NCBI GenBank assembly: GCA_016930085.1
Contig: JAFGHO010000053.1
Span: 1 to 53,845 of the forward strand
Origin: Spirochaetales bacterium
GTDB lineage: Bacteria; Spirochaetota; Spirochaetia; SZUA-6; JAFGRV01
Direction of reading: 5' to 3'
DNA: 53,845 bases
Numbering within the stretch: the stretch's first letter is position 1; the number at the start of each line of letters is the position of its first letter. Below are positions 3,311-44,142 of the stretch, piece after piece. The notes beneath the pieces were generated by a model that made no database searches, was not told the DNA's origin, and worked only from the letters and a program-made list of their open reading frames with translations. The position numbers and the translations under genes are program-made.

Positions 3311-3337
3311 AAAAATTGAACGCGCATGAGGATGCGC
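3311..3337 (-). terminator. Intrinsic terminator of the cyclase/ATPase operon
   Basis: Perfect hairpin GCGCAT (3322-3327), loop GAGG, ATGCGC (3332-3337). Read on the minus strand it is followed after six bases by a run of five U. It lies 10 nt past the stop of the cyclase-ATPase gene. The gap before the U-run is longer than ideal. Confidence 0.5.
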
Positions 3338-3346
3338 ACCCATATA

Positions 3347-5116
3347 TCATCTGAATTGCTTTTTTATAAACCGGTCAAACTCGGCGGAAAAACAGGCAAG
3401 CGAATCATCTTCGTTTCTTACAATATATCCCTTTCGTTCCAGTGCCTCGGCGGGAGGAGAAGCCCCGTCAGGTTGTTTTCCCCCTGCTATCCTGCCGAAT
3501 ATGTCCCGTTCATCATCCGATAACATTTCGAACACATATTCAAAATGCGGTGTTGCCTCTTCCCTGAACATATCGGTGACATCCCTGGGGGTGGTTTTCC
3601 TTACAAAATTTTCGGCGTCACATCCTTCACAATCAAGATATTCGAACCAGGCCGAACAGGCCATCTGGAGGAAGAAAGGGTACGTTCCTCCCAGTTCGAG
3701 TATCTTGTCGCAGACAGGGGCAAGTGGAATCCCCCACTGTTCCGAGGGTTTTTCTATCAATTCACGGGCTTCGTTCGTCGTAAAAAGACCGATGTGATGG
3801 ACCGCGAATATATTGAAAAAGGGAGAATCCGATATCTGGTGCGATACGCACATGTCTTTTAAATTCTTCCCGGAAGCGGTGACAAAGGCCAGGGCGTAAT
3901 TGTTGGCAAGGGATCGAAAGAATGAATAGAATGCCGGGCCGATATGTTCGTTTTTTGTCACGGATTCAAACTCATCCAGAAAAAGTATAAACTTATACCC
4001 GCTTTCCGTTATCTGTTCACAGAGAAAGCGTAACCCGTCAAAGTCTTCCTTGCATACTATCTCTATCTCTTTTCCCATCTGTTTTTTCAAGGCGGAAAAA
4101 ATCATTGTAATGACCTGGGTTTCGTCCGTTGCGCGCATTTGTTGAAAATCAATGAAGAGAAAAAGGTATTGCTGCGCCTCCTCCATTCCGGACAGCCTTG
4201 TTTGAGGAAAGTTGAGATAATTGAGGAGCGATGATTTTCCGATCCGCCTTTCGCCGACAAGCGAGACGGACTGCGGACTTTCTGAGGAAATGCGCCTCAG
4301 GATTCTTTTAACCACCGATTTCCTTCCGAAAAACATATCAGGGTGGGGGATCATCACACGGTTGAGATAGGGGTTGCCTTTTGTCATCAGAGGTCTGATC
4401 TCTTTCTGTTTTTCCTGCAGATCGACGGGCTTCCTTATGACGACTTTCTGCTTCAGCGGAACGGCTTTTTTTACAGCCTGGGCTGGTTGCATGCGGCTGT
4501 TCCATGATTTCCTTATATCTTCTTCCGGCCTGTTGTCCCAGTTCACGACATAGAAATCGATCTGCTTCGTCTTTCCTTTTACGAAATCCTTACCCAGAAA
4601 AACGAGGGGGAAATCCTGATCCGCTATTTTTTCCTTTAGTGATCCGGAGATGAGGATTTCGGCGGCTCCGGCACGGGCTTCGACCCTGGCGGATGTATTG
4701 ACCATATCACCGAAGAGATCCCTGTCGTCGACGACCGCCTCTCCAAAATGAAGCCCCATCCGGACCTGTATCCTCTGATTTTCGTGCTTTGTGGCATTAT
4801 GTGAGGCGAGGGCGGTCTGCATCTCGATCGCGGATCTGATGCTTTTAACTGGGTCTTCGAAGCTTGCCATAATCGAGTCGCCGATCGTCTTGATGATTTT
4901 GCCGCCATACTTCTCGATGATGGGGAAAAGGAGATCGTTATGGGTCTGAATCATCTGCCTTCCCGCGATATCGCCCATTCGTTCGAAATAATGGGTTGAA
5001 CCCACGATATCGGTAAAGAGAAGGGTAATCGGTTTGGTGTATTCCTTGAGAATCTCACCGTCGATCTCTTCGAGTAATGCTTGTCTCTGTCGTAACAGTT
5101 CTTCGATATTTTTCAT
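3347..5116 (-). CDS. Class III nucleotide cyclase fused to a STAND-like P-loop ATPase
   Basis: Residues about 28-190 form a class III cyclase domain: metal ligands D36 (LFTDIVGST) and D80 (KTIGDSIMASF), K76, D137 in FGDMVN, and the transition-state residues N140 and R144. All catalytic positions are filled, so an active enzyme, probably adenylate cyclase, is expected. A linker of about 60 residues leads to the motif NPYL...PDMFFGR (248-265) and a P-loop ATPase with Walker A GERRIGKSS (288-296) and Walker B FILFLDEFE (D381, E382), followed by the GGTYPFFLQ motif of the PF01637-like group. There is no membrane span, so it is cytoplasmic. It is last in a four-gene operon, 21 nt after a related ATPase; AGGAAG precedes the ATG. 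I infer that the ATPase module senses something and gates cyclase output. Confidence 0.88.
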   Translation of the reverse strand: MKNIEELLRQRQALLEEIDGEILKEYTKPITLLFTDIVGSTHYFERMGDIAGRQMIQTHNDLLFPIIEKYGGKIIKTIGDSIMASFEDPVKSIRSAIEMQTALASHNATKHENQRIQVRMGLHFGEAVVDDRDLFGDMVNTSARVEARAGAAEILISGSLKEKIADQDFPLVFLGKDFVKGKTKQIDFYVVNWDNRPEEDIRKSWNSRMQPAQAVKKAVPLKQKVVIRKPVDLQEKQKEIRPLMTKGNPYLNRVMIPHPDMFFGRKSVVKRILRRISSESPQSVSLVGERRIGKSSLLNYLNFPQTRLSGMEEAQQYLFLFIDFQQMRATDETQVITMIFSALKKQMGKEIEIVCKEDFDGLRFLCEQITESGYKFILFLDEFESVTKNEHIGPAFYSFFRSLANNYALAFVTASGKNLKDMCVSHQISDSPFFNIFAVHHIGLFTTNEARELIEKPSEQWGIPLAPVCDKILELGGTYPFFLQMACSAWFEYLDCEGCDAENFVRKTTPRDVTDMFREEATPHFEYVFEMLSDDERDIFGRIAGGKQPDGASPPAEALERKGYIVRNEDDSLACFSAEFDRFIKKQFR

Positions 5117-5137
5117 GGCTTCCTGTACCTTTGGCGG

Positions 5138-6139
5138 TTAATAATATTTCTGCCCCTTGAAAAGCCCGGCAGCCGGATTTCGTTTGAGAAAAGCGAGAAA
5201 AGCAGGTGAAAAAGGAGATAACAATTCATCGTCTTCAACAAGAAATCCATGCCGGATCAAAGGCCGGAGAAGATGAACGTCTTTTTGATCGGGTTGCCTT
5301 CCTTTTGCTATGTGCTTGAGCGGTGAAGAGGCTTCTTTCGGTAATATTGTCAATATTTCTTCGAAGTATGGGGAAATGACGGGCAATAATTTTTGTTCGT
5401 AATGGTTTTCATCCAATTGTAAAAGAGCGGGATTTTTTTCATATCCGCAAGCGATAAGCTTGATCATATAGGGGATGGGACCAGCCCACGATATGATGTT
5501 ATCGGCGACCTCTTTTTCGATCCCGGAGATCGTTTGAAGCAGTATTGCGCCGTTTTGCACGGAAAGCGGGCCAATGGCGAAATTGGTAAAGATATTGAAA
5601 AAAGGAGATTCTTCTATATCCTTGGCGACACATAATTTCTGGAGTTCCAAAAACGATGTGGTTACATATGCGACATTATAATTGTTGGCCAGTGAACGTA
5701 AAAAAGAAAAAAACTCCAGGGGGAATTCCTTGTTTCCGGTGACAAAGTGAAAATCATCGAGCAGGAGAATGAGTTTTTTCCCCGCCTGATGAATATCCTG
5801 CACTATTTTCTGAAGCGTCGCATACTGATTCGTATCCGGTTCCATATCCGGTGAGGCGCTGCCGATTATTTTTGAAATGAAGTGTTCGGCCCGTTCCGAG
5901 GCATGCTCCTGTGAATGCATCAGATAAAAGATATAGTTATCCGGTTGTTTGAGGTGCTCGTTTCTGATTTTCTCATTGAATATATAGTTTATAATCGATG
6001 TTTTCCCGCTTTTTCTTCCGCCGATAATCGCGATCGATTGGGGCCTCTCGGCGCCGATACGGGAAAATATCCGTCTGATGATAGCCGTTCTTCCGAAGAA
6101 ATCATCGGGATTGGTGACAGGTGCATCGGGATCGATCAT
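5138..6139 (-). CDS. STAND-like P-loop ATPase without a partner domain
   Basis: A 333-aa protein made almost entirely of the same ATPase module as its two operon neighbours. An N-terminal PDDFFGR motif (11-17), Walker A GGRKSGKTS (40-48) and Walker B LILLLDDFHF (D128, D129) are visible, followed by a GPIPYMIKLIACGY segment matching the GG-x-P region of the related proteins. The second acidic residue of Walker B is Asp where the others have Glu, so hydrolysis may be weaker. There is no membrane segment and no signal peptide. AGAGGAG lies upstream of the ATG, and the gene starts 16 nt after the stop of the envelope-protein gene. It may form hetero-oligomers with the cyclase-ATPase. Function unknown. 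Confidence 0.8.
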   Translation of the reverse strand: MIDPDAPVTNPDDFFGRTAIIRRIFSRIGAERPQSIAIIGGRKSGKTSIINYIFNEKIRNEHLKQPDNYIFYLMHSQEHASERAEHFISKIIGSASPDMEPDTNQYATLQKIVQDIHQAGKKLILLLDDFHFVTGNKEFPLEFFSFLRSLANNYNVAYVTTSFLELQKLCVAKDIEESPFFNIFTNFAIGPLSVQNGAILLQTISGIEKEVADNIISWAGPIPYMIKLIACGYEKNPALLQLDENHYEQKLLPVISPYFEEILTILPKEASSPLKHIAKGRQPDQKDVHLLRPLIRHGFLVEDDELLSPFSPAFLAFLKRNPAAGLFKGQKYY

Positions 6140-6155
6140 GAATATTCGTCTCCTC

Positions 6156-7091
6156 TTAAAAGTTAAAAAACAGGTATATATTTAAATTGGCAAATAAAAA
6201 CCGCAGCATATCCGGGATAATGTCAATCGAATCATAGCCTGAAGTAATCTCGGACGTTTTTGAACCGAGCATCAGATCGAGTCTTACGATCTCGACTTCT
6301 GCGGCAAGTCCCAGACCTATACGCCAGATCACTTCACCGTGGCCACATAGACCGAGGGAATGGGTAAAGCCATAGTAATTGCGGTCGTTTTCAAGATAAT
6401 TGTCCAGAGAAAAGATATAATATGTCGATAACCCGAAAACGACCTGTTCTATCCTGAACTCCGGAATCCAGATGATCCCGCCCTGAACGCTGAAATTTTC
6501 GAGCAGTCTTGCCGTCAGCTGAACTCGTGCATCGAGGACCAGGCTGAAATCCTCACTCAGGTTATAAGCGTAATGAAGCCCCGGTTGAATGATCGAAAGC
6601 AGGGTATCCTGGTGTTTAACAAGCGATGTAATGATACCGATATTGTGCCGTTTTGTCGTTCGTGAGAACCTGGCGAGGTATTCGGTTTTAACTTCATTAA
6701 AGAGTTTGATGAGTCTGGGTGGCACGACGGTAGGATCGTCGAGTTCGAGGCCCAGATCGAGACGTATCGCCTGGAGAAAGAGAAATCTAATCTCTTCCTG
6801 ATAACCTTCGGTCAGAAAAACAAATGAAACCATAGCCCGAAGCACATAGATATCCGACCGGACGCTGACCGGGTAGAATATGTCCTTTTCCAGAAATTCG
6901 TAGATATATGAATCAAGAAGCTGTTTGCATTCTTCATATTCTCCCTGATCATAGAGTTCTTTCGCATTCATGTATTTCATCTGCGCTTCTTTTCTCGATT
7001 CCGGCGTATCGGCGCCCCCCTGTGCTTGGATTGCCGCGCAAAAAAATGATGTGATTGCGAGCATGGTGATGATATATCCGGTGGTTCTCAT
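6156..7091 (-). CDS. Exported protein with TPR-like N-terminus and probable beta-barrel
   Basis: Not recognised as a named family. A signal peptide (residues 1-23, ending AIQAQ) is followed by a helical TPR-like region (about 35-130; YMNAKELYDQGEYEECKQLL). The rest (about 145-311) alternates hydrophobic and polar residues as in an outer-membrane beta-barrel and ends in NIYLFFNF, a terminal aromatic residue typical of BAM substrates. The start codon lies 3 nt after the stop of the PEGA-ATPase gene, and its AAAGGAG site lies next to that stop codon, so translation is probably coupled. Its position between ATPase genes suggests that the operon links an envelope component to cytoplasmic ATPases. 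Confidence 0.72.
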   Translation of the reverse strand: MRTTGYIITMLAITSFFCAAIQAQGGADTPESRKEAQMKYMNAKELYDQGEYEECKQLLDSYIYEFLEKDIFYPVSVRSDIYVLRAMVSFVFLTEGYQEEIRFLFLQAIRLDLGLELDDPTVVPPRLIKLFNEVKTEYLARFSRTTKRHNIGIITSLVKHQDTLLSIIQPGLHYAYNLSEDFSLVLDARVQLTARLLENFSVQGGIIWIPEFRIEQVVFGLSTYYIFSLDNYLENDRNYYGFTHSLGLCGHGEVIWRIGLGLAAEVEIVRLDLMLGSKTSEITSGYDSIDIIPDMLRFLFANLNIYLFFNF

Positions 7092-7094
7092 CAG

Positions 7095-9206
7095 CTACTC
7101 CTTTAAGATTTCGGGTGGTTGTTTTTTGGTGAGATCCCAATCGATGGTTAGGGTTTTCCCCTCTTCGACCGTGACGGTGACGGTCTCGGATATCTTGAGG
7201 CTTTCGTTTTCAATTTTCAGCTGTTGCGTGCCCGCTTCCACCCTCAGGGGTTTCACCCGCGGGGTTTCGACCGGGTGGGCCACTTTTTCCTCGAACTCGA
7301 TCACCGAGGTATCCTCGAAATAGACAAGTGCAGTGGGCCGTATCCGCAAGACAATGAAGCCGGATATGCGTTCCAGGTCCATTTCGACTGTTATCGGGGC
7401 TTCCTTGTCGACGGCGACCTCTTTCGATACCGTTCTGTGACCTTTGAGTTTTAGTTCCACCGTATATGTGCCGGGATCAAGCCCGCTCAAGACATTCGGT
7501 GTTTTCAAATCCGTCTTTTCCCCGTTCACGATGATGTCCGCGCCGGGGGGGGTGCTTGAAATGATGATCGAACCGATGGCGGCTTTTTGGACAGTCCGCG
7601 GAGTTTGCTTATTTTCCTGCCCGGCAGCCCCCGACTCCTTCTTGAAACTGACCTCGATCGCCTGGTTATCGGTATTCACCAGTGTCGCCATATTGATTTT
7701 TTCACCCGTCTTCGGATATATAAATTGAAAAGTATGGTCTCCGGCGGTCATGACCGGGTAGACGATCGTCAAAACATCGTCACCGCCTTCACTTGAAAGG
7801 GTCAGGGCTTCGTCGATGACCACACGAAATGGCCCGTAATTCGAACGGAAAACGATATCGTTCACTTCACTCCCGGCTTCAACGCCCGTGCGTATGTCTT
7901 GCCCGTTTCCTTCGGCGATACCGGTAGCCTCGGGGCCTTTCAGGTTGGCGCCGGAAAGAATAAAAACCCAGAAGAGAATGATGCCGATGACCGGCACTGA
8001 AGCGATGAGGCCGACGATGACGGGATTTACGGGCCTTTTCAATCCCAGACCTATTTCCTTTGTCACTTTCCAGATGGAATGCTCTTTTTTTATCCATCTC
8101 CTGAAGATATCCATGCGAAAAGAGTATTCCTGGCGGTCGTTTTTTTTGAGAAATTCCATATGGTAGGCATCTTCAAGCAGAATATTAATACGTTCTTTCT
8201 TGAACGGCAGCTGGATCTTGTTTTTCATCAGGTATGCATAGATTTCCTGTGTTCCCGCTACTGCCGCGGGTCCTTTCAGCACTCCGCTTAATGCGGAAAG
8301 TATGAGTCTGATATAATCGCCGAGGTTGTTCCACGAGTAGATCATCTGGGGTAATGGATTGTTGACGATATCCTTGATAACGGTTTTGAGATCCTCCGGG
8401 GAAACATCGTTACGCTCTTCCTCGATAAGCAGGTCGACGATATTCTGGCATATCACCTGAGTGTAGAAGGGTTGGCCCCCGGTAAGTCTGTAAATCGACC
8501 CTATGACATCTTCCGGATAATCGATGTAATCTTTCAAAGGATCGGTAATAAGCCGCGCGGTATCGTTTTCAGAGAAGTAGGAAATTTTTCTGTATATCGA
8601 TTTTCCGAGTAGCGATTTCCAGAAATCGACCTTCCTGTTTTCCAGATTTGTCGACCCCGTAAAAATAAACGACACCTTGTACGGGCTTTCCAGAATCCCC
8701 GAAAGAAAATGGATGACCGATTCACTGAATGTCCCGTCCTTGATCTTTGTTTCGATCAGTTCATATTCGTCGAGAAGAAAGAGTACTATTTTTTCCGGAT
8801 ATCGCTCCCTGACAAGATCCAAAAATGCCGTAAAAAGACTCTCGGTTTTTTTCTCCGGGGCGGTGTTTTTAATCGTATCGATCGTAAGTCCCGGTATTGA
8901 GAGTTGTGAACACGCGACATCGAGGATTGCTTTGAAGAAATCAGTATCGTTTTTTATGCCGGCGAGTATCTGCATATCGATAAGAATGGGAAGGAATTCT
9001 CCGCCGAGCCGGCCGAGCCGTATCTGAAAAAGAATCGATGTTTTGCCGCTTCTTCTGTCACCGCAGAAAATCAGAACCTGATTCGAGTGGCCGCCTCCGA
9101 TCTTTCGGATTACATATTGAAAATCGTCTTCCCGGCCGAAGAACATCTCCTTTGTCTTTATAGGATTACCGACAATATAGGGATTATAGGGTATCTTTTT
9201 CATCAC
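7095..9206 (-). CDS. Membrane-anchored STAND-like ATPase with PEGA domain
   Basis: First gene of the operon, 703 aa. The motif NPYIVGNP...EMFFGRE (8-25) precedes Walker A GDRRSGKTS (49-57) and Walker B VLFLLDEYE (D146, E147), then the GG-x-P motif LTGGQPFYTQ (about 242-250) and a helical region to about 385. A transmembrane helix (about 396-418) places the remaining 285 residues outside the cytoplasmic membrane. A PEGA domain (about 545-610; SSTPPGADIIVNG) lies there, a fold found in surface or cell-wall-associated proteins. The start is GTG at 9206 or ATG at 9203; no ribosome binding site is seen, and a TATAAT box ends 9 nt upstream, so a leaderless transcript is possible. The layout suggests a transmembrane sensor. 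Confidence 0.85.
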   Translation of the reverse strand: MMKKIPYNPYIVGNPIKTKEMFFGREDDFQYVIRKIGGGHSNQVLIFCGDRRSGKTSILFQIRLGRLGGEFLPILIDMQILAGIKNDTDFFKAILDVACSQLSIPGLTIDTIKNTAPEKKTESLFTAFLDLVRERYPEKIVLFLLDEYELIETKIKDGTFSESVIHFLSGILESPYKVSFIFTGSTNLENRKVDFWKSLLGKSIYRKISYFSENDTARLITDPLKDYIDYPEDVIGSIYRLTGGQPFYTQVICQNIVDLLIEEERNDVSPEDLKTVIKDIVNNPLPQMIYSWNNLGDYIRLILSALSGVLKGPAAVAGTQEIYAYLMKNKIQLPFKKERINILLEDAYHMEFLKKNDRQEYSFRMDIFRRWIKKEHSIWKVTKEIGLGLKRPVNPVIVGLIASVPVIGIILFWVFILSGANLKGPEATGIAEGNGQDIRTGVEAGSEVNDIVFRSNYGPFRVVIDEALTLSSEGGDDVLTIVYPVMTAGDHTFQFIYPKTGEKINMATLVNTDNQAIEVSFKKESGAAGQENKQTPRTVQKAAIGSIIISSTPPGADIIVNGEKTDLKTPNVLSGLDPGTYTVELKLKGHRTVSKEVAVDKEAPITVEMDLERISGFIVLRIRPTALVYFEDTSVIEFEEKVAHPVETPRVKPLRVEAGTQQLKIENESLKISETVTVTVEEGKTLTIDWDLTKKQPPEILKE

Positions 9207-9214
9207 TGATCAAA

Positions 9215-9220
9215 ATTATA
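9215..9220 (-). promoter_or_regulatory. Minus-10 box upstream of the ATPase/cyclase operon
   Basis: A perfect TATAAT on the minus strand (9220 to 9215). No good -35 hexamer is found 16-18 nt upstream. The predicted start point falls within a few bases of the first codon (9206 or 9203). Confidence 0.35.
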
Positions 9221-9436: not shown

Positions 9437-9655
9437 TTACGGTTTACTTCCGATGAGGGTGATATTCATTCCGATCTGGTAACGTTCTCCGCTTTCCGGA
9501 TTGGTTACCTTTTCACCTGCATAAAAACCGACCGATCCCGTTGAAAAATGTTTTTTCCCGGCGATAAACGATCCCCAGGTCTTCCCCTCCGGGGATGTAA
9601 TTGTTACTTGAAGAAAATCCGGCGCTTTCTGGTCTCTTTTTTTCGGTTCGGGCAT
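9437..9655 (-). CDS. Small conserved-looking protein of unknown function
   Basis: A 72-aa polypeptide with no signal peptide or membrane segment. It contains beta-rich segments (FLQVTITSPEGKTWGSFIAG, then VGFYAGEKV), a glycine-rich middle and an N-terminus rich in Lys, Arg and Asp. A textbook AAGGAGG lies 5 nt before the ATG, which argues that it is translated. It stands alone, upstream of and in the same direction as the ATPase/cyclase operon, separated from it by a strong hairpin. I do not recognise the family. Confidence 0.6.
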   Translation of the reverse strand: MPEPKKRDQKAPDFLQVTITSPEGKTWGSFIAGKKHFSTGSVGFYAGEKVTNPESGERYQIGMNITLIGSKP

Positions 9656-9883: not shown

Positions 9884-10720
9884 AAGACCGGAAAGCAGGC
9901 TCCTCATTATACTCCGGAAGGACACAGCGACAGAATCGTTGCGTTATGTATCGCCCCCGGAGGAAAACGAATTATTTCCGTTAGCAGGGACAGGACATTA
10001 AGAATCTGGGATGCCGATATGGGGCGGTGCATGATCTCGATTAAAAAGGGTATTAAAGACATTACCTCACTGGCAGTAACGCCCGACGGTAATCATTTTT
10101 TGACGGGCGGGAAAAACGGAGTCATAACGATGCGGGCTTTGGAAAACGGAAAAAAATGTAATAGATTCGAAAGTAAATTATCGGCAGTAAATAATGTTCT
10201 GGTCACCGGGGACGGGAAATATGTTATATCGGGGAGTGAGGATAAAACGGTGAGAATATGGAACCTGACTTCAGGAAAATGTCTTTGGATTGTCGGGGGA
10301 TATCATTGGGAAAATAATGCGGCGGTTCGTTCAATGGCTATAACACCCGGCGGCCGCTATATTGTATCGGCAGGTCTGGATATTGTTATCTGGAAATTCG
10401 GTAAATTGACGTTAAAGCTGCCGGATTTGATTCGTTTTATATTGTGGGGATTAACGCGGTCAGGTCCGGCACGAATTTTTACAATAGACGGTTATATGTA
10501 TGCAAATGTGCTATTGATTATTAACGGTAACTATATCGCTTACTCATCGGACCGAATTGGGGAAGTTAATTTGATAAAAAGAAATAATGGGAAATGTGTT
10601 TGGGTTTTGGAATCGATGAATACGAAGAACACCGTACTGTCTCATACGGACGGCACACTAATAGCAGCCGGCTGTGAAAACGGCACGATACACCTCTGGG
10701 ATTTAAAACTTATAGTATAA
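9884..10720 (+). pseudogene. Decayed WD40-repeat gene lacking its 5' end
   Basis: The reading frame is open from 9884 and immediately encodes a good WD40 blade (GHSDRIVALCIAPGGKRI then SVSRDRTLRIWDAD). The first in-frame start codon (ATG 10019) falls after that blade, just past the RIWDAD. Four or five further blades follow (for example ISGSEDKTVRIWNLTSGKC and AGCENGTIHLWDL), with a poor region near 10400-10560. A short open frame with an ATG at 9870 lies in another frame, so a frameshift or 5' deletion is likely. A complete propeller would need seven or more blades, so the expressed part from 10019 (233 aa) would be an incomplete propeller. It may be the remnant of a larger WD40 protein. Confidence 0.65.
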
Positions 10721-10975: not shown

Positions 10976-12685
10976 TCATTTTACCTTTATTTCAATAAGG
11001 CCGTATTTGCCTTTATCCCTGACCGCAATATAGTAAATACCATTTTTTTCTTTTAATATGTAGGCGTTTTCAAACAACGGTTCAATAATAATTCTTCCAT
11101 CACGGTCGATCACACCGGATTTATCATCTTTCTTGATTCGTCCCCAATTTATGTAATATTCAACCATATCATACCGTGGTTCTACGATTGTGCCGGTTGA
11201 CGTATCGACAAAGCCCGCTTTTCCGTTCTTGATAATAATTATATATTTATTTTGAACACTGTAAATTGAATCATATTTCGGTTCTACGACTATATGTCCT
11301 ATTTTATCGATAAAACCCCATTTGCCTTCACTTTCAAAGGACGCCATTTCTTCCAGTATGAAATCACCGACGTCAACAAAAGACGGTTCGATAACAAGTG
11401 TGCCGTTTCTGTCCAGGAATCCCCACAAACCGTTTTTATTGATTTTAGCCAGCCCATGATAAAATGTTTTTCCGACATAATCATACTGCGGTTCAATGAT
11501 TGTTTTCCCGGTCTTATTGATAAAGCCTTCTTTTCCTTCGATTTTTATTGACGCGTAGTCATTCTCGAGTTTCCCGATACTGTCATACACAGAAGCCAAC
11601 ACAATATTGCCGTCAGTATCCATTAATCCGTATTTGCCTTCTTTCGTCACCTTAAGTAAATCCCTGAATTCTTCCCTGTTTTCCGAACAACAAGTGAAAT
11701 ACTCTATTGTATCAAGCTGGGGTTCAAGAAGTGTTTTGTTCCCATATTTATCCATTATTCCCCATTTACCGTTTTTTTCTATCAATAAATTGCCGTCAAG
11801 AAGATTTTTAATGCAACTATATTGTGGAGGCTGCTTTATCCTGCCTGTGACATCAATGAGTCCCCATAACATGCCGGATTTTATCTTGAACACATTTGTC
11901 ACAATTTCCCCCTCATTATTCGAAAAAGAAAGCGCTTCCATTTCATTGTATTCCGGTTCGATTATGATTTCTCCCCGGGATGACATCATTCCCCACCGGT
12001 TGTTTTGTTTAATCATGACATAATTTTTTCCCGGATAATCGCTGATTTTCACTTCATCGAACATTGGATTTATCAATAATCTGTATTTAAAGTTGAAAAA
12101 TCCCCATTTCCCGTTTTTTCTGACCGGTGTTATTCCTGCAAAACCAAGGCGTTCTCCTAATTCGTCAAAGCATGGTTCAATGACGAAGTCTCCATTTATA
12201 TCAATGAATCCCCATCTGCCTTCTATTTCAACACCCATCATTTTGCCTAAAAACGACACTTCGACGGTATCAAACCTGGGTTCAATAATGAAGTTTCCTT
12301 TTTTGTCAATGAATCCCCATTTCCCTTCTTTTTCAACGCCAACCAATCCTTCCGAAAAAAAATAATATGCCCGGTGAAATTGAGGAGGAATCACTATTTC
12401 ACATTCGGTATTAATAAAGCCTGCTTTTTGATCGAGCCATATCCGGGCGAAATCATCATGCCCGGGATGCTCGATAGATCCGTATTTTATATCCAATACC
12501 ATATTACCGGATTTATCGATGATACCCCATTTATCATTTTTCTCGATAAGAAAACGATTGTCGTCGAAAACCTCTATTTTCTCGAATTCAGGTTTCAATA
12601 TATATCGATAACCGTTACCGGAGCTGCATTGGAATAACAGAATGACTGAAAATAATAAAATGAATATAGCTGTAATTTTATTCAT
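10976..12685 (-). CDS. WG-repeat lipoprotein
   Basis: A 569-aa lipoprotein: the signal peptide ends in a lipobox (SVILLFQC, C20). About 15 tandem repeats of 33-40 residues follow, each with the core [KR]WGFIDKxGxxxIEPxxD, the WG beta-repeat (PF14903-like). Copies include KWGIIDKSGN, KWGFIDKKGN, RWGFIDINGD, LWGFLDRNGT and KYGLIEIKVK at the end. Such repeats form solenoid or propeller-like surfaces used in protein or ligand binding, but the role here is unknown. AAGGAG precedes the ATG. Base composition is more AT-rich than that of the core genes in the window, and the neighbours are relics, which suggests an accessory gene. Confidence 0.85.
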   Translation of the reverse strand: MNKITAIFILLFSVILLFQCSSGNGYRYILKPEFEKIEVFDDNRFLIEKNDKWGIIDKSGNMVLDIKYGSIEHPGHDDFARIWLDQKAGFINTECEIVIPPQFHRAYYFFSEGLVGVEKEGKWGFIDKKGNFIIEPRFDTVEVSFLGKMMGVEIEGRWGFIDINGDFVIEPCFDELGERLGFAGITPVRKNGKWGFFNFKYRLLINPMFDEVKISDYPGKNYVMIKQNNRWGMMSSRGEIIIEPEYNEMEALSFSNNEGEIVTNVFKIKSGMLWGLIDVTGRIKQPPQYSCIKNLLDGNLLIEKNGKWGIMDKYGNKTLLEPQLDTIEYFTCCSENREEFRDLLKVTKEGKYGLMDTDGNIVLASVYDSIGKLENDYASIKIEGKEGFINKTGKTIIEPQYDYVGKTFYHGLAKINKNGLWGFLDRNGTLVIEPSFVDVGDFILEEMASFESEGKWGFIDKIGHIVVEPKYDSIYSVQNKYIIIIKNGKAGFVDTSTGTIVEPRYDMVEYYINWGRIKKDDKSGVIDRDGRIIIEPLFENAYILKEKNGIYYIAVRDKGKYGLIEIKVK

Positions 12686-21252: not shown

Positions 21253-22134
21253 CTATTCCGTCAATCGTTTGATAATCAGGTCCTTGTTTCTCCATTTTGG
21301 CGAAACCTTTACCCGGAAATCGAGATGTATGTAGTAAGGGAAAAGATCTTTCAACTCCTCACGGGAGGTTTCAAGTATTTTTCTGATTTTTTCCCCGTTT
21401 TTTCCGATAAGAATCCCTTTCTGCGACTCCCGCTCGACACAGATAAACCCCCTCACCCAGAGCATGTTTTTTTCTTCCCTCATTTCCATATCCTGTATGT
21501 CGACAAAGAGGCAATGGGGGAGTTCCTGTTTGGTTTCAGCTATGGCGGCCTCCCGGATGATTTCGGCAATCCGGAAATCCGGCGGCTGATCGGTGTAGAA
21601 CTCCTCGGGATACATCGCTTCACCTTCCGGGGCCGTTTCGAACAGTGCCTCAAGAAGCTTCTGGAGCCCGCCTCCGGTCGCCGCAGAGATATCGTAAAAA
21701 GAAAGGTCCGGCAGCATCTGTTCCAGGTCGGAGACGATCGATTGTCTGTAGTTATGCGTGATATCGATTTTATTCAGACCGACGATGACCGGCTTTTCCG
21801 TTTTGCCGATGATCCTCATGATTTCCCGTTCTTCTTCACCGGTATCGCGGGAAATATCGATGAGGTAGAGAACCATATCGCTTTCCTCGATGGAGGAGTG
21901 AACGAGTTTTTTCATGTAGATATTGAATTTTTTTTTCGAAGAATGAAAACCCGGGGTATCGATAAAAACAAGCTGTCCGGCCCCTTCATCGGCATTGTAT
22001 ATACCCCTGATTTTATTTCTTGTCGTTTGCGGGACCGGGGAGACAATCGAGACCTTCCGTTGACAGATCCGGTTGATGAACGTTGATTTCCCTGAAGAAG
22101 GCCGCCCGACCAGGGATACGAATGCGAATTTCAC
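21253..22134 (-). CDS. era: GTPase Era
   Basis: Ribosome-associated GTPase needed for 16S rRNA maturation and 30S assembly. G1 is GRPSSGKST (10-18), with Ser where most bacteria have Asn, as I recall for spirochaetal Era. G3 is DTPGFH (59-64) and G4 NKID (121-124). The C-terminal KH domain contains GILIGKNGEKIRKI. The length of 293 aa is normal. The start is GTG at 22134, with AGGAGA about 12 nt upstream, a little far. It converges on the GH94 gene with a 49-nt gap and diverges from the giant lipoprotein gene. Confidence 0.95.
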   Translation of the reverse strand: MKFAFVSLVGRPSSGKSTFINRICQRKVSIVSPVPQTTRNKIRGIYNADEGAGQLVFIDTPGFHSSKKKFNIYMKKLVHSSIEESDMVLYLIDISRDTGEEEREIMRIIGKTEKPVIVGLNKIDITHNYRQSIVSDLEQMLPDLSFYDISAATGGGLQKLLEALFETAPEGEAMYPEEFYTDQPPDFRIAEIIREAAIAETKQELPHCLFVDIQDMEMREEKNMLWVRGFICVERESQKGILIGKNGEKIRKILETSREELKDLFPYYIHLDFRVKVSPKWRNKDLIIKRLTE

Positions 22135-22316
22135 GCGGTTGGTTGTTCTCCTTTCAGCTTTTGTTCAACCTTTACGGCGGGTCAAGTATGACCGTTTTCG
22201 GGAAAAATATCAACATGTTTCGATGCACCGGACGGCCTGTCCTTCCGTATGATTTCGGGTCCGGTCTTGTGAAAAAAAAATCATCATGTATTATAATGAA
22301 AGAAGGGGGCGTTGCA

Positions 22317-25300
22317 ATGAGAGAACGAACGGATACGACATATGTCGCAATTATAAAAGCCGCGTATTTTCTTTTTATTCCGATTGTGTTTTGTGTTATT
22401 ACCGCCTGTACCTCCAATCCGAAACAGGAAGAAAAAGCGGAGGCACCAATCGCGAACGTCAATAAAACCGAATCGACGGAAAAGTCCGATTTATCCGAAC
22501 TTTTCAAGAAACTGCTGGACGACAAACGGGAGAACGGTACGGTGGATGAAGAGGCGATATCTTTTTTCATCGATCCCGGATTTTATCCGGAAACCGTCAC
22601 CTGCTCTGTCATGTTTCATGAAAAGAATGAGATGATTACGGGCGGAAATGACGGAATTATCCGTGTTCTGGATCCGGACACCGGAAAGGAAAAGAGGAAA
22701 ATGCGCTTTGAGCGATCCGGCCGGCCGGATGGGGGAATCGTCCGCTTGGCATTGTCATCGTGGAAAGGGGTGCTTGCGGCCGCCGTTTGTCATGAAGGAG
22801 TGGCGAACCCCGTAGTCGAAATATACGAATACGCTACGGGAAAAGAAATCGGGAATATTTCACTGTCGGGAAAGACAATTTCACGGATGGTATTTTCCGG
22901 CGACGGAAACCGTCTCGCTGCCGCTTGCGGGGATGATACGGTCATGTACTGGAAGGCAGAGGAGGAGTACCGGACCGGGCGGACGATACACCCCGGGGTT
23001 GGGATGATAACCGCTTTGGCGTTTGCGGAAAACGATATTATTATAGCCTCAGGGGACAACCGTGAGGTAAAATGCCATTCCCTTGAAACCGGGACACCGG
23101 TTCATGAATACTCATCCGAGACTCCCGTTACCGATCTGGCCGTTCACGCCGACTATATCGCGGCCGGATGCGCCAATAATACAATCGTCGTCTTTGATCG
23201 CGAACTCAGACCGGTGAAGACAATCCGCGACGGATATCATTCGGGTATTTTATCGTTTTCGCCTGATGGAGATCACCTGCTTTCGATACGTCCTTCCGGC
23301 AAGTTTTTTGTTTATTATGATGTGACATCCGATTTCGAGCAGTCCGTCATCGCCATCGGGAAAGAGATCGACCCTTTCGGCGTACATTTTATCGATAACG
23401 ATCGTCTGATCATCATCGGGGGCGGGCGTCCCGAATTCAATGTGATGGACATTGCTTCGGGGTCCTTGATAAGGCATGAGGCACCGGCCGTTTACGGGAT
23501 TTCGGAGGCGATAATCACAGAGAATGCGCTTGTAATAAAAAAAACGTCTGCTGAGGAAGCTTCCGCTTTCAATCTGAATGATTTCACCTTCAACCCCGCT
23601 GAAAAATCCCCGGTGACCGGGCGTCTTTCCCCTTCCATCGACGCATACGCCATTTCGCAGTGCGATACTCCGGGCGGAAATGAAAGCGGTCTGAACTATG
23701 AAATCAGGCATGGAACATCGACAGCCTCTCTATCCACGGACCTGGTGAACGGCGGTTTTTTCGGTTTCATGGGGGACGATACTATTCTCGTCGAACAATC
23801 GGGAGGATATATCGCTGTTTATGACAGGGAAGCGAAGAAAATCTCGACATTGTCCGGACTCTCGGGCCGTCTCAAGGATCTCTCGTTTCATTCCGGTTTT
23901 ATCGCCGCAATGGACGTCAATAACCTGATCGCCATATGGCGGGAGGAAGACATCGCGGGCGGAACGCCTTTCGTGCCGCAACACCTTCACTTTTTTATGC
24001 GCAGCGATAATAGCTGGGTACTTGCAAGCCGGAACGGCTATTACACGGAAAAAAACGGCGGATCGCAGGTATTATGGCTTTATCAAAAGGAGAAAAACGG
24101 GACGAAAGCGTTCTGCGGCAGTGTCGGGATCTTCTCGGAAATATATCACCGGAAAGACGTTATCGGACTCCTTGCCGGGGGTAAAAGTTATCGGGAGGCC
24201 GCCTCGAGCATTGGTGAAAAACAACCGTTACGGCAGGTGGCAAGAATTTTCCCCGAAGAATCGTATTACCTTTCCGATATCGGCGGTTCATGGTTCCCGA
24301 TGGACTCGCTTAAAGAGACGAACCAGCTTATTTCAACGGCATACATGCACAAAAATTTCAAATATTCGGTCATGATAATGGAAGAGAAAACGGGGAATCC
24401 CTTTGTCTTTCCCGGACTCGAAAATTATTCGGACAGGATGCTTGCCGGTTATTCACATACCATTGCCGACTGCAAACTTCTCTCAAAAAAGGAATTCACG
24501 GTGAACGGGAAGAACGGAATTTTATTGATATTGACGGGAAATGCGGGTAAACTCGCCATCCAATATTATATCTGGTTTTATTGCAGTAATGACCGTGTGT
24601 ATCAGTTGGTGTCATGGAAAATGGATGACGGAATACAATCGACCGATATCCCCGAAGATATCATGGGGTTTTACGGCGGTTTCAATATCTTTTCCACGGA
24701 TGCAGCGGAACACCGCCCGGACGGCGGGGCTCCCTACGTTTCCGGTTACGGCTATACCATCAATTTCCCTGCGTCGGGATTCAGCCGGTGGGACGATATC
24801 GGTGAGTATTACAATATCGCGGAATCGGGAGGGTACCGGGGGAATGATATCGCATTTTTTATTACGCCGATAGATACCGGTGAAATCGATCCTTCGATTG
24901 AAGCATTGACAAGGGGATTTCTCGAAGCGCAGGGTATCAATGTTACCAACGCCGATCTCAAGGGATACAAACGGATAGAATACAATGGCCTCCGCGGTGT
25001 TGAGTTCAGTTACCTTTCGGATTATCATTACTATTTCCGGATACTGAAGACTCTTCCGGCCCGTCATTGTGCTTATTATATCGCTTTGATCGAGAAAAAA
25101 ACCGGGCTCGCCGATGCCGGTCTCATGGAAAAATTTTATGACTCGATTTCATTTACCGGCGGAAATGACGGGAAGGAAGAAGGACGAGCGGAAAATCAAA
25201 AAACGGGGTCTGACATGGATCTCAATTCAGCTTTAATCATGAACAAGATGGGACTTTTTTATTTCAGCAACTCCCAGTACATAAAATCTCTTTCCTGTTT

Positions 25301-27845
25301 CCGGGCCGCATTCGAAAAGAACAACCATGATGCGGATTATTTTGAGAATGTCCTTCATTGCCTCTCCATCCTGGAAAAATATAACGAGGGCCTTCAGTAT
25401 CTCGATACCTACCTCACTCACTTTCCGGATAATATTTCCGTCAGGTCCTATCTCGCCTTTTTTCTGAAACAGACGGGACAAAAAGATAAAGCGGCCGGGG
25501 AATATAAAGCCCTTTTCGATCAGGAATACAGACAGGATTACGATTTCGTCGATTATCTGAATCTCCTGTGGGAGATGGAACGGAAAGAGGAGGCCTTCGA
25601 TGCGATTAAAATGTACCAGAAAGAAAAATTCTCCGTTCTCGTCGCCAGGAAAGAAGCGGATTTGTATGAACGGGAAGGGCAGTACGAGAAGGCCATAACA
25701 ATGCTAAAGGATGTGTATGAAACAACGGTCTTCGATCAGGATGTCGTTCTGGATCTCTGTATGATTCTCAATCGTGCGGGAAGGAGTCAGGAGGCGATAG
25801 ATATCTGTGAGGAACTGATTCGTGACGATCATAGATCGGCGGATATCTATTTCGTGATGGGACTCAATCAACTTGAATTGAACTGGTATCAGGAAGCAAA
25901 ACTTTCTTTCGAAAAGGCACATGAATTGAATCCTACGGACACGGATATAAAAGAATATATCGATTATGTCTCCGGGCTTCTGGGAGAAAAAGACAACACG
26001 TCGATAAAAAAAGAAATCAAGGCAGTCATGATCTCACCCGAATACCTGGAGGTCCCGGATCCCGGTGTAATGAAGGATGTAAGCGACCGTGACGCCTTTT
26101 ATTTGCATCGTGTCACTGCTTTTTTTTATAAAAAAGACCTCGAAATGAAGTATACCATGTATTACCGGATCAAGGTGCTCACGTATCCGGGTATTTCCCA
26201 TTTCAGCACATTCACCCTGCCGTTCGATCCCCTGGATGAAGGAATATATGTCAACGAATTGAAGGTATTCGACGAAAAGGGAAAACTCGTTTCCGAAGGC
26301 GACCCGTCAAAGTACTTTGTCATGGACGATACTTCTTCCGATATGGCCACGGGGGGTAAAGTACTCAATGTACCGATCCCGGGATTGCAGCCGGGCTACT
26401 CTTTCAGTATTTCAGCGACATGGAGCAATCATAATTTCAACGATGGCCCCAGGTATTATTTCGATTACCTTGCCCGCACTTACCCGATCATCAACAATTA
26501 TGTGATCATAACCGGCGACATTGACGCTTTTGCTTACAGCACGAAAAATATGCCGTCCCCCCAGAAAAAGGACGGCGAACTTGTCTTTCGGGTTCCCCGG
26601 CACATTGAAATTTCATGGGAGCCGTATCAGGATATGGAGGCGTCGGAGGTGCCCGAAATACATATCGGCTGCGCATCGAACACCTGGAAAGGGGAAGTGG
26701 ATTCCTACCTTGATGAAATAGAAGAAAAGCTCGTTCCCCGTGAAGATGTCGTCCGGCTTTCAGACGGGCTTGTTTCGGGCTGCACAAATGATGAGGAGAA
26801 GATAGAGAAACTGGCCAGATATGTTCAGGCGAACTACACATACAAGGCGATCGAGTTCGGGAGAAGGGGCTGGGTGCCGAACGACGGAGACGTGATCATA
26901 CATAACAAGTACGGCGACTGCAAGGACCTGTCGTTACTGCTGTACCTGATGCTCAAAGCGGAGGGTATTCTTTCGCATCTTGTGCTGACAAGCACGTCCA
27001 CCGTCGTGGCGCCCGATCTGCCCGATCTCGACCAGTTCGACCACGTCCTGCTTTATATTCCGGGGGTCGGAGACGGGCAGTTTCTAGACCCGACAAACAA
27101 GTCGTACGATATAACCCGCCTGCCGCCCGAGGGTCTATCCGGACAATATTGTCTTGTCCTCGACCGGCAGAATCCCCGAATCATCAGGATGACCTCCTAC
27201 CCCGCCCACTGTAACGCAATCGAATCGGAAAGAACGCTCGAGGTTGGGGATGACGATTCGATCAATGTGAGGGAAACGCTGTATTTCAAGTTGTACGCGG
27301 CCTCTTTTCTCCGGGCGTATTTGAACCAGTTCGACAACAGCCAGCGGCAGACGCAGATACAATCCTATATGGCTTCCATTTTGCCCGGGGTGAAACTGAA
27401 GAAGATGGAAACACTCAATCTGGACGATACGGGAAAGGATTTCATTTTACATCTGGAATACACGACGGGGACGGTCGTCAAAGACCATGACAGGCGTTTT
27501 ATATCGAGACTCCCGGCCGTCTGGGAACGGGCGCATATTTTCCAGCAGCATCTCGCCGAACGGAAAACACCGTTTCGTTTGTATTTACCTCTTTCCTTTA
27601 AAAGCCGTATCACGATCAGGGATAAGGGAGACCTTTCCGGGAAAAACGAGTTGAAACAGAAAAAGGAAGAGAATGATTTTACCCGATGGTCGATCGCAGG
27701 GAAAATGGAAAATGGCGCTTTCGTTATCAGGTTCGATTTTTATCAGAAACAGGTGGCATACCCGAAGGAGGACTACCATCGCTTCGAAGCTGCCCTGAAT
27801 GCCGCGGTCGAGCATCTCGAGACAAGGATTAATCTTTTGCGGTAA
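22317..27845 (+). CDS. Giant lipoprotein: WD40 propeller, TPR and DUF3857/transglutaminase domains
   Basis: About 1842 aa. The signal peptide ends in the lipobox VITAC (about C35). Residues about 60-560 hold WD40-type repeats (NDGIIRVLDPDTGKEKRKM; AACGDDTVMYWK). About 600-960 contain two similar modules of unknown fold. TPR repeats (about 968-1220) lead into a DUF3857 domain and a transglutaminase-like core with a complete triad: C1535 (YGDCKDLS), H1576 (FDHVLLY) and D1591 (FLDPTN). A protein-modifying or peptide-bond-processing role in the periplasm is possible; DUF3857-transglutaminase proteins are often uncharacterised. The start is ATG 22317, after AGAAGGGGGCG; in-frame codons upstream overlap era and are not likely used. 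Confidence 0.85.
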   Translation: MRERTDTTYVAIIKAAYFLFIPIVFCVITACTSNPKQEEKAEAPIANVNKTESTEKSDLSELFKKLLDDKRENGTVDEEAISFFIDPGFYPETVTCSVMFHEKNEMITGGNDGIIRVLDPDTGKEKRKMRFERSGRPDGGIVRLALSSWKGVLAAAVCHEGVANPVVEIYEYATGKEIGNISLSGKTISRMVFSGDGNRLAAACGDDTVMYWKAEEEYRTGRTIHPGVGMITALAFAENDIIIASGDNREVKCHSLETGTPVHEYSSETPVTDLAVHADYIAAGCANNTIVVFDRELRPVKTIRDGYHSGILSFSPDGDHLLSIRPSGKFFVYYDVTSDFEQSVIAIGKEIDPFGVHFIDNDRLIIIGGGRPEFNVMDIASGSLIRHEAPAVYGISEAIITENALVIKKTSAEEASAFNLNDFTFNPAEKSPVTGRLSPSIDAYAISQCDTPGGNESGLNYEIRHGTSTASLSTDLVNGGFFGFMGDDTILVEQSGGYIAVYDREAKKISTLSGLSGRLKDLSFHSGFIAAMDVNNLIAIWREEDIAGGTPFVPQHLHFFMRSDNSWVLASRNGYYTEKNGGSQVLWLYQKEKNGTKAFCGSVGIFSEIYHRKDVIGLLAGGKSYREAASSIGEKQPLRQVARIFPEESYYLSDIGGSWFPMDSLKETNQLISTAYMHKNFKYSVMIMEEKTGNPFVFPGLENYSDRMLAGYSHTIADCKLLSKKEFTVNGKNGILLILTGNAGKLAIQYYIWFYCSNDRVYQLVSWKMDDGIQSTDIPEDIMGFYGGFNIFSTDAAEHRPDGGAPYVSGYGYTINFPASGFSRWDDIGEYYNIAESGGYRGNDIAFFITPIDTGEIDPSIEALTRGFLEAQGINVTNADLKGYKRIEYNGLRGVEFSYLSDYHYYFRILKTLPARHCAYYIALIEKKTGLADAGLMEKFYDSISFTGGNDGKEEGRAENQKTGSDMDLNSALIMNKMGLFYFSNSQYIKSLSCFRAAFEKNNHDADYFENVLHCLSILEKYNEGLQYLDTYLTHFPDNISVRSYLAFFLKQTGQKDKAAGEYKALFDQEYRQDYDFVDYLNLLWEMERKEEAFDAIKMYQKEKFSVLVARKEADLYEREGQYEKAITMLKDVYETTVFDQDVVLDLCMILNRAGRSQEAIDICEELIRDDHRSADIYFVMGLNQLELNWYQEAKLSFEKAHELNPTDTDIKEYIDYVSGLLGEKDNTSIKKEIKAVMISPEYLEVPDPGVMKDVSDRDAFYLHRVTAFFYKKDLEMKYTMYYRIKVLTYPGISHFSTFTLPFDPLDEGIYVNELKVFDEKGKLVSEGDPSKYFVMDDTSSDMATGGKVLNVPIPGLQPGYSFSISATWSNHNFNDGPRYYFDYLARTYPIINNYVIITGDIDAFAYSTKNMPSPQKKDGELVFRVPRHIEISWEPYQDMEASEVPEIHIGCASNTWKGEVDSYLDEIEEKLVPREDVVRLSDGLVSGCTNDEEKIEKLARYVQANYTYKAIEFGRRGWVPNDGDVIIHNKYGDCKDLSLLLYLMLKAEGILSHLVLTSTSTVVAPDLPDLDQFDHVLLYIPGVGDGQFLDPTNKSYDITRLPPEGLSGQYCLVLDRQNPRIIRMTSYPAHCNAIESERTLEVGDDDSINVRETLYFKLYAASFLRAYLNQFDNSQRQTQIQSYMASILPGVKLKKMETLNLDDTGKDFILHLEYTTGTVVKDHDRRFISRLPAVWERAHIFQQHLAERKTPFRLYLPLSFKSRITIRDKGDLSGKNELKQKKEENDFTRWSIAGKMENGAFVIRFDFYQKQVAYPKEDYHRFEAALNAAVEHLETRINLLR

Positions 27846-36782: not shown

Positions 36783-37772
36783 ATGGCTTTAGATGTGAAA
36801 AAGATCGGGGAAAAGGTTGAAAAGGAAAGCGGTACACTTACGAATATCAGAAAAGAAATACAGGGAGTCATTATCGGACAGGAATATCTTGTCGAACGCC
36901 TTCTGATCGGGCTGTTGTGCAACAGCCATATCCTTATCGAGGGAGTACCCGGTCTGGCAAAAACGCTTTCCGTCACCACGCTCGCGAAAACGATCGACGC
37001 CTCATTTAAGCGTATTCAATTCACCCCCGACCTCCTGCCGGCAGACCTAGTGGGGACACTCATCTACCATCCGAAAACGGGAGAGTTTACCACCAAAAAA
37101 GGTCCTATTTTTTCGAATATCATCCTTGCCGATGAAATCAACCGGGCACCTGCCAAGGTGCAAAGCGCCCTCCTCGAGGCGATGCAGGAGCGCCAGGTAA
37201 CGATCGGAGACGAAACACACAGGCTCGACGATCCCTTTATGGTCCTGGCTACCCAGAATCCGATCGAACAGGAAGGGACCTACCCGCTCCCCGAAGCCCA
37301 GGTCGACAGGTTTATGCTCAAACTCAAAGTCACGTATCCCTCGCGGGCCGAGGAACTCCAGATATTGCGCCGTATGGCGGTGAGTTCGGTGAATATCGAT
37401 GTAAAGCCGGTCCTAAAGCCAAAGGATATTATCCGGCTGAGGGGACTCGCGGACGAGATCTATATGGATGAGAAGATCGAGGAATATATCGTCGATATCG
37501 TCCAGGCGACCAGGACGCCTTCGACCTTCAATCTCGATATCGAGGACCTGATCCAGTACGGGGCGTCCCCGCGTGCGACCATTTATCTTACCGTCGCCTC
37601 GAAGGCCCACGCGCTTGTCGAGGGACGCAGTTATGTCACGCCGCAGGATGTCAAATCCATCGGCATGGATGTGCTCAGACATCGGGTCATCGTGAGTTAC
37701 GAGGCGGAAGCGGAGGAAAAAACGCCCGAGGATATAATACAGCAGATATTTGATACAGTCGAAGTGCCATGA
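36783..37772 (+). CDS. moxR: MoxR-family AAA+ ATPase
   Basis: 329 aa. Walker A GVPGLAKT (54-61), Walker B ILADE (114-118), the EAMQERQVT sensor region and the second-region motif QVDRFMLKLKVTYPS are those of MoxR AAA+ ATPases, which act as chaperones activating metal-dependent VWA proteins. It heads an operon of nine genes; the next gene starts in the stop codon (ATGA overlap). AGGGG precedes the ATG. Confidence 0.95.
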   Translation: MALDVKKIGEKVEKESGTLTNIRKEIQGVIIGQEYLVERLLIGLLCNSHILIEGVPGLAKTLSVTTLAKTIDASFKRIQFTPDLLPADLVGTLIYHPKTGEFTTKKGPIFSNIILADEINRAPAKVQSALLEAMQERQVTIGDETHRLDDPFMVLATQNPIEQEGTYPLPEAQVDRFMLKLKVTYPSRAEELQILRRMAVSSVNIDVKPVLKPKDIIRLRGLADEIYMDEKIEEYIVDIVQATRTPSTFNLDIEDLIQYGASPRATIYLTVASKAHALVEGRSYVTPQDVKSIGMDVLRHRVIVSYEAEAEEKTPEDIIQQIFDTVEVP

Positions 37773-38644
37773 TATCGAAAGAACTATCGCGTAAAATAAG
37801 GTATATACAGATCTATACCACAAAGGCGGTCAATAATGTATTCGCCGGCGAGTACGAAAGTGCGTTCAAGGGACAGGGGATGGAGTTCGAGGATGTCCGT
37901 GAGTACCAGCCGGGCGACGAGGTGAGAAGCATCGACTGGAACGTGACCGCGCGAATGGGAAGACCTTTTATCAAACGGTTTGTCGAAGAGCGCGAACTCA
38001 CCGTTATTTTTCTCGTCGACCTTTCCGCTTCCGGCTCGTTCGGAAGTGTCAGGAAATCGAAGAATGAAATCGCGGCCGAACTATGCGCACTCCTGTCCTT
38101 CGCGGCAATAAAAAACAATGACAAGGTCGGACTCATTGTCTTTACCGATGTGGTTGAAATGTTCATTCCGCCAAAAAAAGGAAATACCCATGTCCTTCGT
38201 CTCATACGCGAGCTTCTCATGTTCAGGCCGGGAAAGGTCGATACCGATATCCGTGAAGGACTCAATTATCTGGGCCGGGTGACGAGAAAGCGGGCGGTCG
38301 TCTTTCTGGTTTCCGACTTTCTGGAAACGGGATTTGAAAGGCAGATGCGGATCATGGCCAACCGCCACGATTTGATCGCGGTATCGATTACCGATCCCCG
38401 TGAAGTAAACATGCCGAATGTGGGGTTGCTCGAGCTGGAAGACGCTGAGACCGGTGAGATTATCACCATCGATACGGGTGATCCGGCGGTAAGAAGGATG
38501 TACGAACGCCGGGGAAGGGAACGGGAAGATCTTCTGAAAAAGCTTTTCCATTCCACGGGCGTCGATCATATCGATATACGGACGGACCGGGATTATTTGC
38601 AGAAAATCATGCGGTTTTTCCTCGAACGGGAAAAACGGCCTTAA
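37769..38644 (+). CDS. DUF58 protein
   Basis: 291 aa, next to moxR as in almost all Bat clusters. The family signature GMEFEDVREYQPGDEVRSIDWNVTARMG is complete, followed by a VWA-like half with FLVDLSASGSFGS (DxSxS) and VFLVSDFLE. It likely binds the MoxR ATPase and a metal ion; the exact role is unknown. The gene overlaps moxR by 4 nt, so translation is coupled. Confidence 0.92.
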   Translation: MISKELSRKIRYIQIYTTKAVNNVFAGEYESAFKGQGMEFEDVREYQPGDEVRSIDWNVTARMGRPFIKRFVEERELTVIFLVDLSASGSFGSVRKSKNEIAAELCALLSFAAIKNNDKVGLIVFTDVVEMFIPPKKGNTHVLRLIRELLMFRPGKVDTDIREGLNYLGRVTRKRAVVFLVSDFLETGFERQMRIMANRHDLIAVSITDPREVNMPNVGLLELEDAETGEIITIDTGDPAVRRMYERRGREREDLLKKLFHSTGVDHIDIRTDRDYLQKIMRFFLEREKRP

Positions 38645-38662
38645 GAAATCCAGGAGTAACAG

Positions 38663-44138: not shown

Positions 44139-44142
44139 TGAT

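Follow-up and report, generated by a model that had tools for sequence, protein, structure and literature searches.

A conserved spirochaete gene cassette that may couple envelope STAND and barrel proteins to a predicted class III adenylate cyclase

Introduction

What could a bacterium gain from encoding a class III cyclase next to three P-loop ATPases and a predicted outer-membrane-type barrel? The question is raised by four adjacent genes in a stretch of 53,845 nucleotides (the window; contig JAFGHO010000053.1 of assembly GCA_016930085.1) from a Spirochaetales bacterium, whose genome comprises 5.36 Mb in 135 contigs. The original prediction, made from the bare sequence, read these genes as an operon for envelope-to-cytoplasm signalling.

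Results

Organization and distribution of the cassette

A recheck of the open reading frames recovered the four genes with the predicted coordinates and strand, separated in transcript order by 3, 16 and 21 nt. The features of the locus are:

9215..9220, minus strand: putative -10 box TATAAT, 11 nt before the ATG at 9203
7095..9206, minus strand: gene 1 (P0004), PEGA-STAND protein, 703 aa; eight other genomes have orthologues at 48-59% identity
6156..7091, minus strand: gene 2 (P0003), exported helical/barrel protein, 311 aa, from predicted structure and hydropathy
5138..6139, minus strand: gene 3 (P0002), bare nSTAND2 ATPase, 333 aa, from Pfam and motifs
3347..5116, minus strand: gene 4 (P0001), class III cyclase-nSTAND2 fusion, 589 aa, from Pfam and motifs
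3317..3342, minus strand: terminator-like hairpin (11 pairs) with a T-run behind it, just past the end of gene 4 (a consensus match only)

When each protein was searched against 148 related genomes, all four genes were found together in nine free-living spirochaete genomes of one class (the window genome, G001, G002, G004, G007, G008, G012, G017 and G029), always in the order PEGA-STAND, barrel, bare STAND, cyclase-STAND, the cyclase gene running off the contig end in G008 and G029. The genes are thus not scattered among relatives, and the operon of the original prediction holds up on this point. The flanks are mostly unshared: G001 has three shared genes on the 3' side, and the sister genera G007 and G012 have one 5' gene in common. 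That four unrelated genes lie together by chance is scarcely credible given this all-or-nothing presence and an order that stays constant across nine loci while the flanks vary, and we rejected this explanation.

The cassette is absent from the remaining 139 or so of the 148 relatives, even from G003, a genome of the same family, and is therefore not essential. Sampling the class more widely (395 genomes) and the phylum evenly (393 genomes) brought no further cassette; the class sample yielded only a distant barrel homologue in G010, which is located without the ATPases and was discarded as a trace of the cassette. Among the 148 relatives the nSTAND2 family (PF20702) occurs in these operons only, in two copies each, the one single-copy case being a cyclase gene cut by a contig end. 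A search for phage and plasmid relatives returned none but generic cyclase domains and one distant STAND, of the first type defined below, on an Acinetobacter plasmid; P0002 had no match on plasmids. The rpoB tree and the tree of the concatenated operon agree in their supported groups, (G000,(G002,G004)) and (G017,(G007,G012)), and differ in the weakly supported position of G001. Several losses are needed to account for the pattern of presence. Mostly vertical inheritance with losses would be more in keeping with a signalling module retained over long times than with a fast-turnover defence system.

All nine genomes have a TATAAT-like hexamer 7-21 nt ahead of gene 1 (9203-9220 in the window, and loci L082-L089); it is perfect in seven of them, against a background of 2 perfect boxes in 96 other ORFs. 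Because the hexamer is so close, the transcript may carry no more than a few bases ahead of the initiation codon of gene 1 (GTG at 9206 or ATG at 9203), which would make it a near-leaderless mRNA. Shine-Dalgarno-like motifs are present at most of the downstream genes, and the promoter-like box together with the 3' hairpin supports a putative single transcription unit. A fifth conserved gene was sought in the nine loci and none was found. One candidate for this place, a 72-aa ORF upstream of the cassette (9437-9655, minus strand) with a strong ribosome site (AAAGGAGG), has counterparts of 72% identity in G002 and G004; it was set aside, being shared with these two genomes only and located elsewhere in G002.

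Two second-type ATPases, one fused to a cyclase

Pfam and hydropathy bear out the predicted division of the three ATPases into one with a complete cyclase, one with a membrane span and a PEGA domain, and one bare; all three also carry the (E/D)MFFGR or DDFFGR motif directly before an intact P-loop. P0001 matches Guanylate_cyc (PF00211, E 4e-21, residues 25-190) and nSTAND2 (8e-38, residues 260-589), and P0002 matches nSTAND2 (3e-26); their PF20702 scores are 130.7 and 92.9 bits, for a curated cut-off of 24. In P0001 the GERRIGKS P-loop and the DEFES-type Walker B are intact in every orthologue that reaches these motifs; P0002 has the P-loop GGRKSGKT, the Walker B LLLDDFH and, in FLRSLANNY, a conserved presumed finger arginine. 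A search of PDB sequences with the cassette ATPases found no relatives.

The catalytic residues of class III cyclases comprise two metal-binding aspartates (here D36 and D80), a Lys/Asp pair that binds adenine (K76 and D133) and an Asn/Arg pair for the transition state (N140 and R144). All six are invariant in the nine sequences, so that P0001 has the complete set expected of a class III adenylate cyclase. From established knowledge of class III cyclases, the K76/D133 pair points to ATP as the predicted substrate. The best solved relative of the cyclase domain is Ma1120, with which it aligns.

A membrane-anchored STAND and a barrel

P0004 shows PEGA (E 3e-15) and a weak ATPase_2 match in Pfam. 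Its STAND ATPase (residues ~8-385) is followed by a span (~396-414) and three beta-sandwich domains, among them PEGA at 545-613. The predicted model has the same succession, with a helical/winged-helix part before the span, at a pLDDT of 73 and a pTM of only 0.37 that leaves the arrangement of the domains uncertain. With this limit on the model, its ATPase part resembles ORC/Cdc6 most in fold comparison, then plant NLRs and Avs3, and P0004 combines the P-loop ATPase, winged-helix tail and ORC/NLR-like fold of STAND NTPases. The span near residue 396 is strong in all nine orthologues, with basic residues on its N side in most. P0004 is thus predicted to be an inner-membrane STAND with a periplasmic PEGA/beta-sandwich part.

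P0003 matches no Pfam family. Its predicted model (mean pLDDT 80) consists of a signal helix, five helices and then eight strands, and its best PDB matches are the barrels of OprF, Ail, NspA and OmpA, headed by the N-terminal barrel of OprF with a TM-score of 0.78 (by target length). A signal-like N-terminal segment is seen by hydropathy in all nine P0003 proteins. P0003 is therefore a predicted outer-membrane-type barrel with a helical, TPR-like periplasmic part. Of the exported TPR/beta-barrel protein originally announced, the signal-like segment and, as a predicted fold, the barrel are borne out, while the TPR part rests on predicted helices and has no TPR profile match. Small barrels of the OmpA/OprF type are also eight-stranded but carry a C-terminal OmpA peptidoglycan-binding domain, whereas the helical part of P0003 is N-terminal. 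The barrel gene is the fastest evolving of the cassette, and in six relatives it overlaps the PEGA-STAND gene by 4 nt.

Across all orthologues, hydropathy gives one span in P0004, the N-terminal segment in P0003 and none in P0001 or P0002. These spans, signal segments and predicted structures would place the products of genes 1 and 2 at the envelope and those of genes 3 and 4 in the cytoplasm.

First- and second-type STANDs

The original prediction took the three ATPases for one and the same module; profile comparison and the tree instead separate two kinds. The cyclase-STAND and bare STAND profiles match each other at E 3e-59, and the PEGA-STAND profile matches these two at 2e-12 and 3e-8; on sequence grounds, P0001 and P0002 are nSTAND2 sister paralogues and P0004 is of a different family. 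Distant PEGA-STAND matches led to four other two-gene STAND pairs:

L091, genome G011: STAND pair with an N6-methylase
L092, genome G088: STAND pair with HEPN
L093, genome G016: STAND pair with HEPN, 1 kb apart
L121, Acinetobacter plasmid NZ_MH220285.1, 194747-202512: STAND pair with HsdR and an N6-methylase

In all four, the upstream gene scores 67-113 bits against the PEGA-STAND profile and the downstream gene -1 to 17; the downstream member has its best score with the bare or the cyclase profile. Against the bare profile, the second partners reach 32-51 and the first-types 9-20. The assignment to first and second type rests on these profile scores; the STAND tree backs it in part, its deep branches and the second-type placement of L091 and L121 being weak. 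Because pair partners split in this way, the cassette is, as judged by profile, one first-type plus two second-type STANDs with the polarity of the two-gene pairs. The presumed finger arginine, in the column of the FRSL/LREL helix, follows the same division: 17 of 17 cyclase and bare ATPases have Arg, and all nine PEGA-STANDs have Ser or Ala. This pattern fits complementary partners, and one reading of it is that the cyclase and bare subunits would supply the finger arginine to the PEGA-STAND site.

Two of the loci met in these comparisons deserve mention for themselves. The L121 operon is a restriction system with a STAND pair: it encodes HsdR, an N6-methylase/specificity protein whose fusion partner is a first-type STAND, and a second-type STAND ATPase. 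In the cassette carrier G004, a TIR-domain gene overlaps a multi-span first-type STAND ATPase (L152:6944-10343), possibly a separate conflict system; by eye its TIR protein gave the impression of an eroded second-type STAND, which profile comparison did not support.

Discussion

We consider it somewhat probable that the cassette is a trans-envelope signalling device derived from an immune-type STAND pair, in which a STAND relay would control a cyclase. A more detailed version, in which the outer-membrane barrel acts through the membrane-anchored STAND and a hetero-oligomeric STAND ring on the fused adenylate cyclase, so that an immune-type pair has been rebuilt as an envelope-to-cAMP sensor, is put forward tentatively, as a possibility that we hold with some doubt. 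In the broader reading, a change in the outer membrane or periplasm would reach the PEGA part of P0004; the membrane STAND would then exchange nucleotide and nucleate a mixed ring with the bare and cyclase-bearing STANDs, and this ring would bring the cyclase domains together. Class III cyclases are active as dimers. The cAMP produced could be read by the host's many cyclic-nucleotide-binding proteins (the genome has 27 cNMP-binding and 15 cyclase-domain matches); none of the four genes encodes a cAMP receptor, and this output is assumed. The fast evolution of the barrel and the lack of the cassette in many relatives also weigh against this reading. The signalling role originally proposed thus gains from the conservation of the block and from a topology that fits, while its direction, the assembly of the ATPases and the control of the cyclase remain inference.

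The cyclase-ATPase arrangement has a precedent in mycobacterial proteins of the Rv0386 type, in which a class III cyclase is N-terminal to a STAND-like ATPase with an HTH. P0001 shares this order of cyclase and ATPase but is devoid of the HTH or TPR tail, and its ATPase is an nSTAND2 encoded with two further STANDs and envelope proteins. No description of a cyclase-PEGA-STAND set was found in open-licence publications, and the original view that no described system has these parts stands for the whole set. It does not stand for the ATPase core, which belongs to or borders the nSTAND2 systems described by Kaur et al. 2021 (PMC8195603, Fig. 6C): mobile two-gene operons with two STAND modules, both with a conserved arginine finger, which are predicted to form a hetero-multimeric ring that drives effectors, most commonly GT4 or HEPN. 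The cassette and these pairs have in common PF20702 and a STAND NTPase core of which one member bears a variable effector. They differ in several respects (PMC8195603): (i) the pairs are defined by two adjacent STAND genes, whereas the cassette has three STANDs in four genes; (ii) the cassette effector is a class III cyclase, although GT4 and HEPN are not strictly defining; (iii) the effector-fused STAND is inactive in the pairs, with eroded NTP-binding motifs, but keeps its P-loop and Walker B in the cassette; (iv) the cassette adds a membrane/PEGA part and an outer-membrane-type barrel; and (v) it is mostly vertical, while the pairs are mobile. What would be new is thus the cyclase effector, the envelope input and the extra bare ATPase.

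This kinship raises the main alternative, which we regard as unlikely though worth weighing, that the cassette is itself an anti-phage or conflict system, in which the barrel and PEGA part or the STANDs would detect phage at the envelope and a cyclic nucleotide alarm would lead to dormancy or death, as in a Pycsar system under STAND control. The nSTAND2 pairs are predicted to be counter-invader systems (Kaur et al. 2021, PMC8195603), STAND-pair relatives lie beside HEPN (L092, L093), HsdR/N6-methylase (L121, L091) and TIR (L152), and the presence of the cassette is patchy. P0001 also shares with Pycsar a predicted class III-type cyclase that makes cyclic nucleotides, but the PADLOC matches are weak and at the level of domains (E 4e-9), the cyclase is STAND-fused and adenine-type (K76 and D133), and the paired membrane or NADase effector of Pycsar, which is gated by cyclic nucleotides and encoded next to the PycC cyclase, is missing: no conserved effector gene was found in or beside the cassette at any of the nine loci. 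The cassette thus has neither toxic effector nor receptor, the inspected flanks have no clear defence genes, and neither the mostly vertical descent with losses nor the plasmid and phage searches above suggest island hopping. Stable vertical inheritance would also suit a machine for envelope assembly or maintenance, whose STAND ATPases would act mechanically to put the barrel, or a partner bound to PEGA, in place, while the cyclase reports the state of the ATPases; the translational adjacency of barrel and PEGA-STAND in the six relatives with overlapping genes points the same way. We nevertheless hold this to be improbable, for the ATPases are by fold and family STAND/ORC-like switches, not members of known motor families, and nothing about the barrel suggests that it depends on an assembly device of its own.

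Most of what is known of STAND switches (NLRs, Avs, MalT-like proteins) concerns sensors in the cytoplasm. If the signalling interpretation is correct, an inner-membrane STAND with a periplasmic part, a barrel and a cyclase output would widen what such switches sense and do, and would show a route from a predicted immune module to a signalling module. The cassette would also be a four-gene system with an easily measured cAMP output.

Other parts of the window carry further genes with repeat or ATPase domains. A WG-repeat lipoprotein-like protein (10976-12685, minus strand) adjoins a WD40-repeat ORF (10019-10720). On the plus strand, 22083-27845 encodes a 1920-aa protein that combines WD40 and TPR regions with transglutaminase-like ones, and 36783-45999 holds a cluster that extends from a MoxR AAA ATPase (36783-37772) to BatD (44065-45999).
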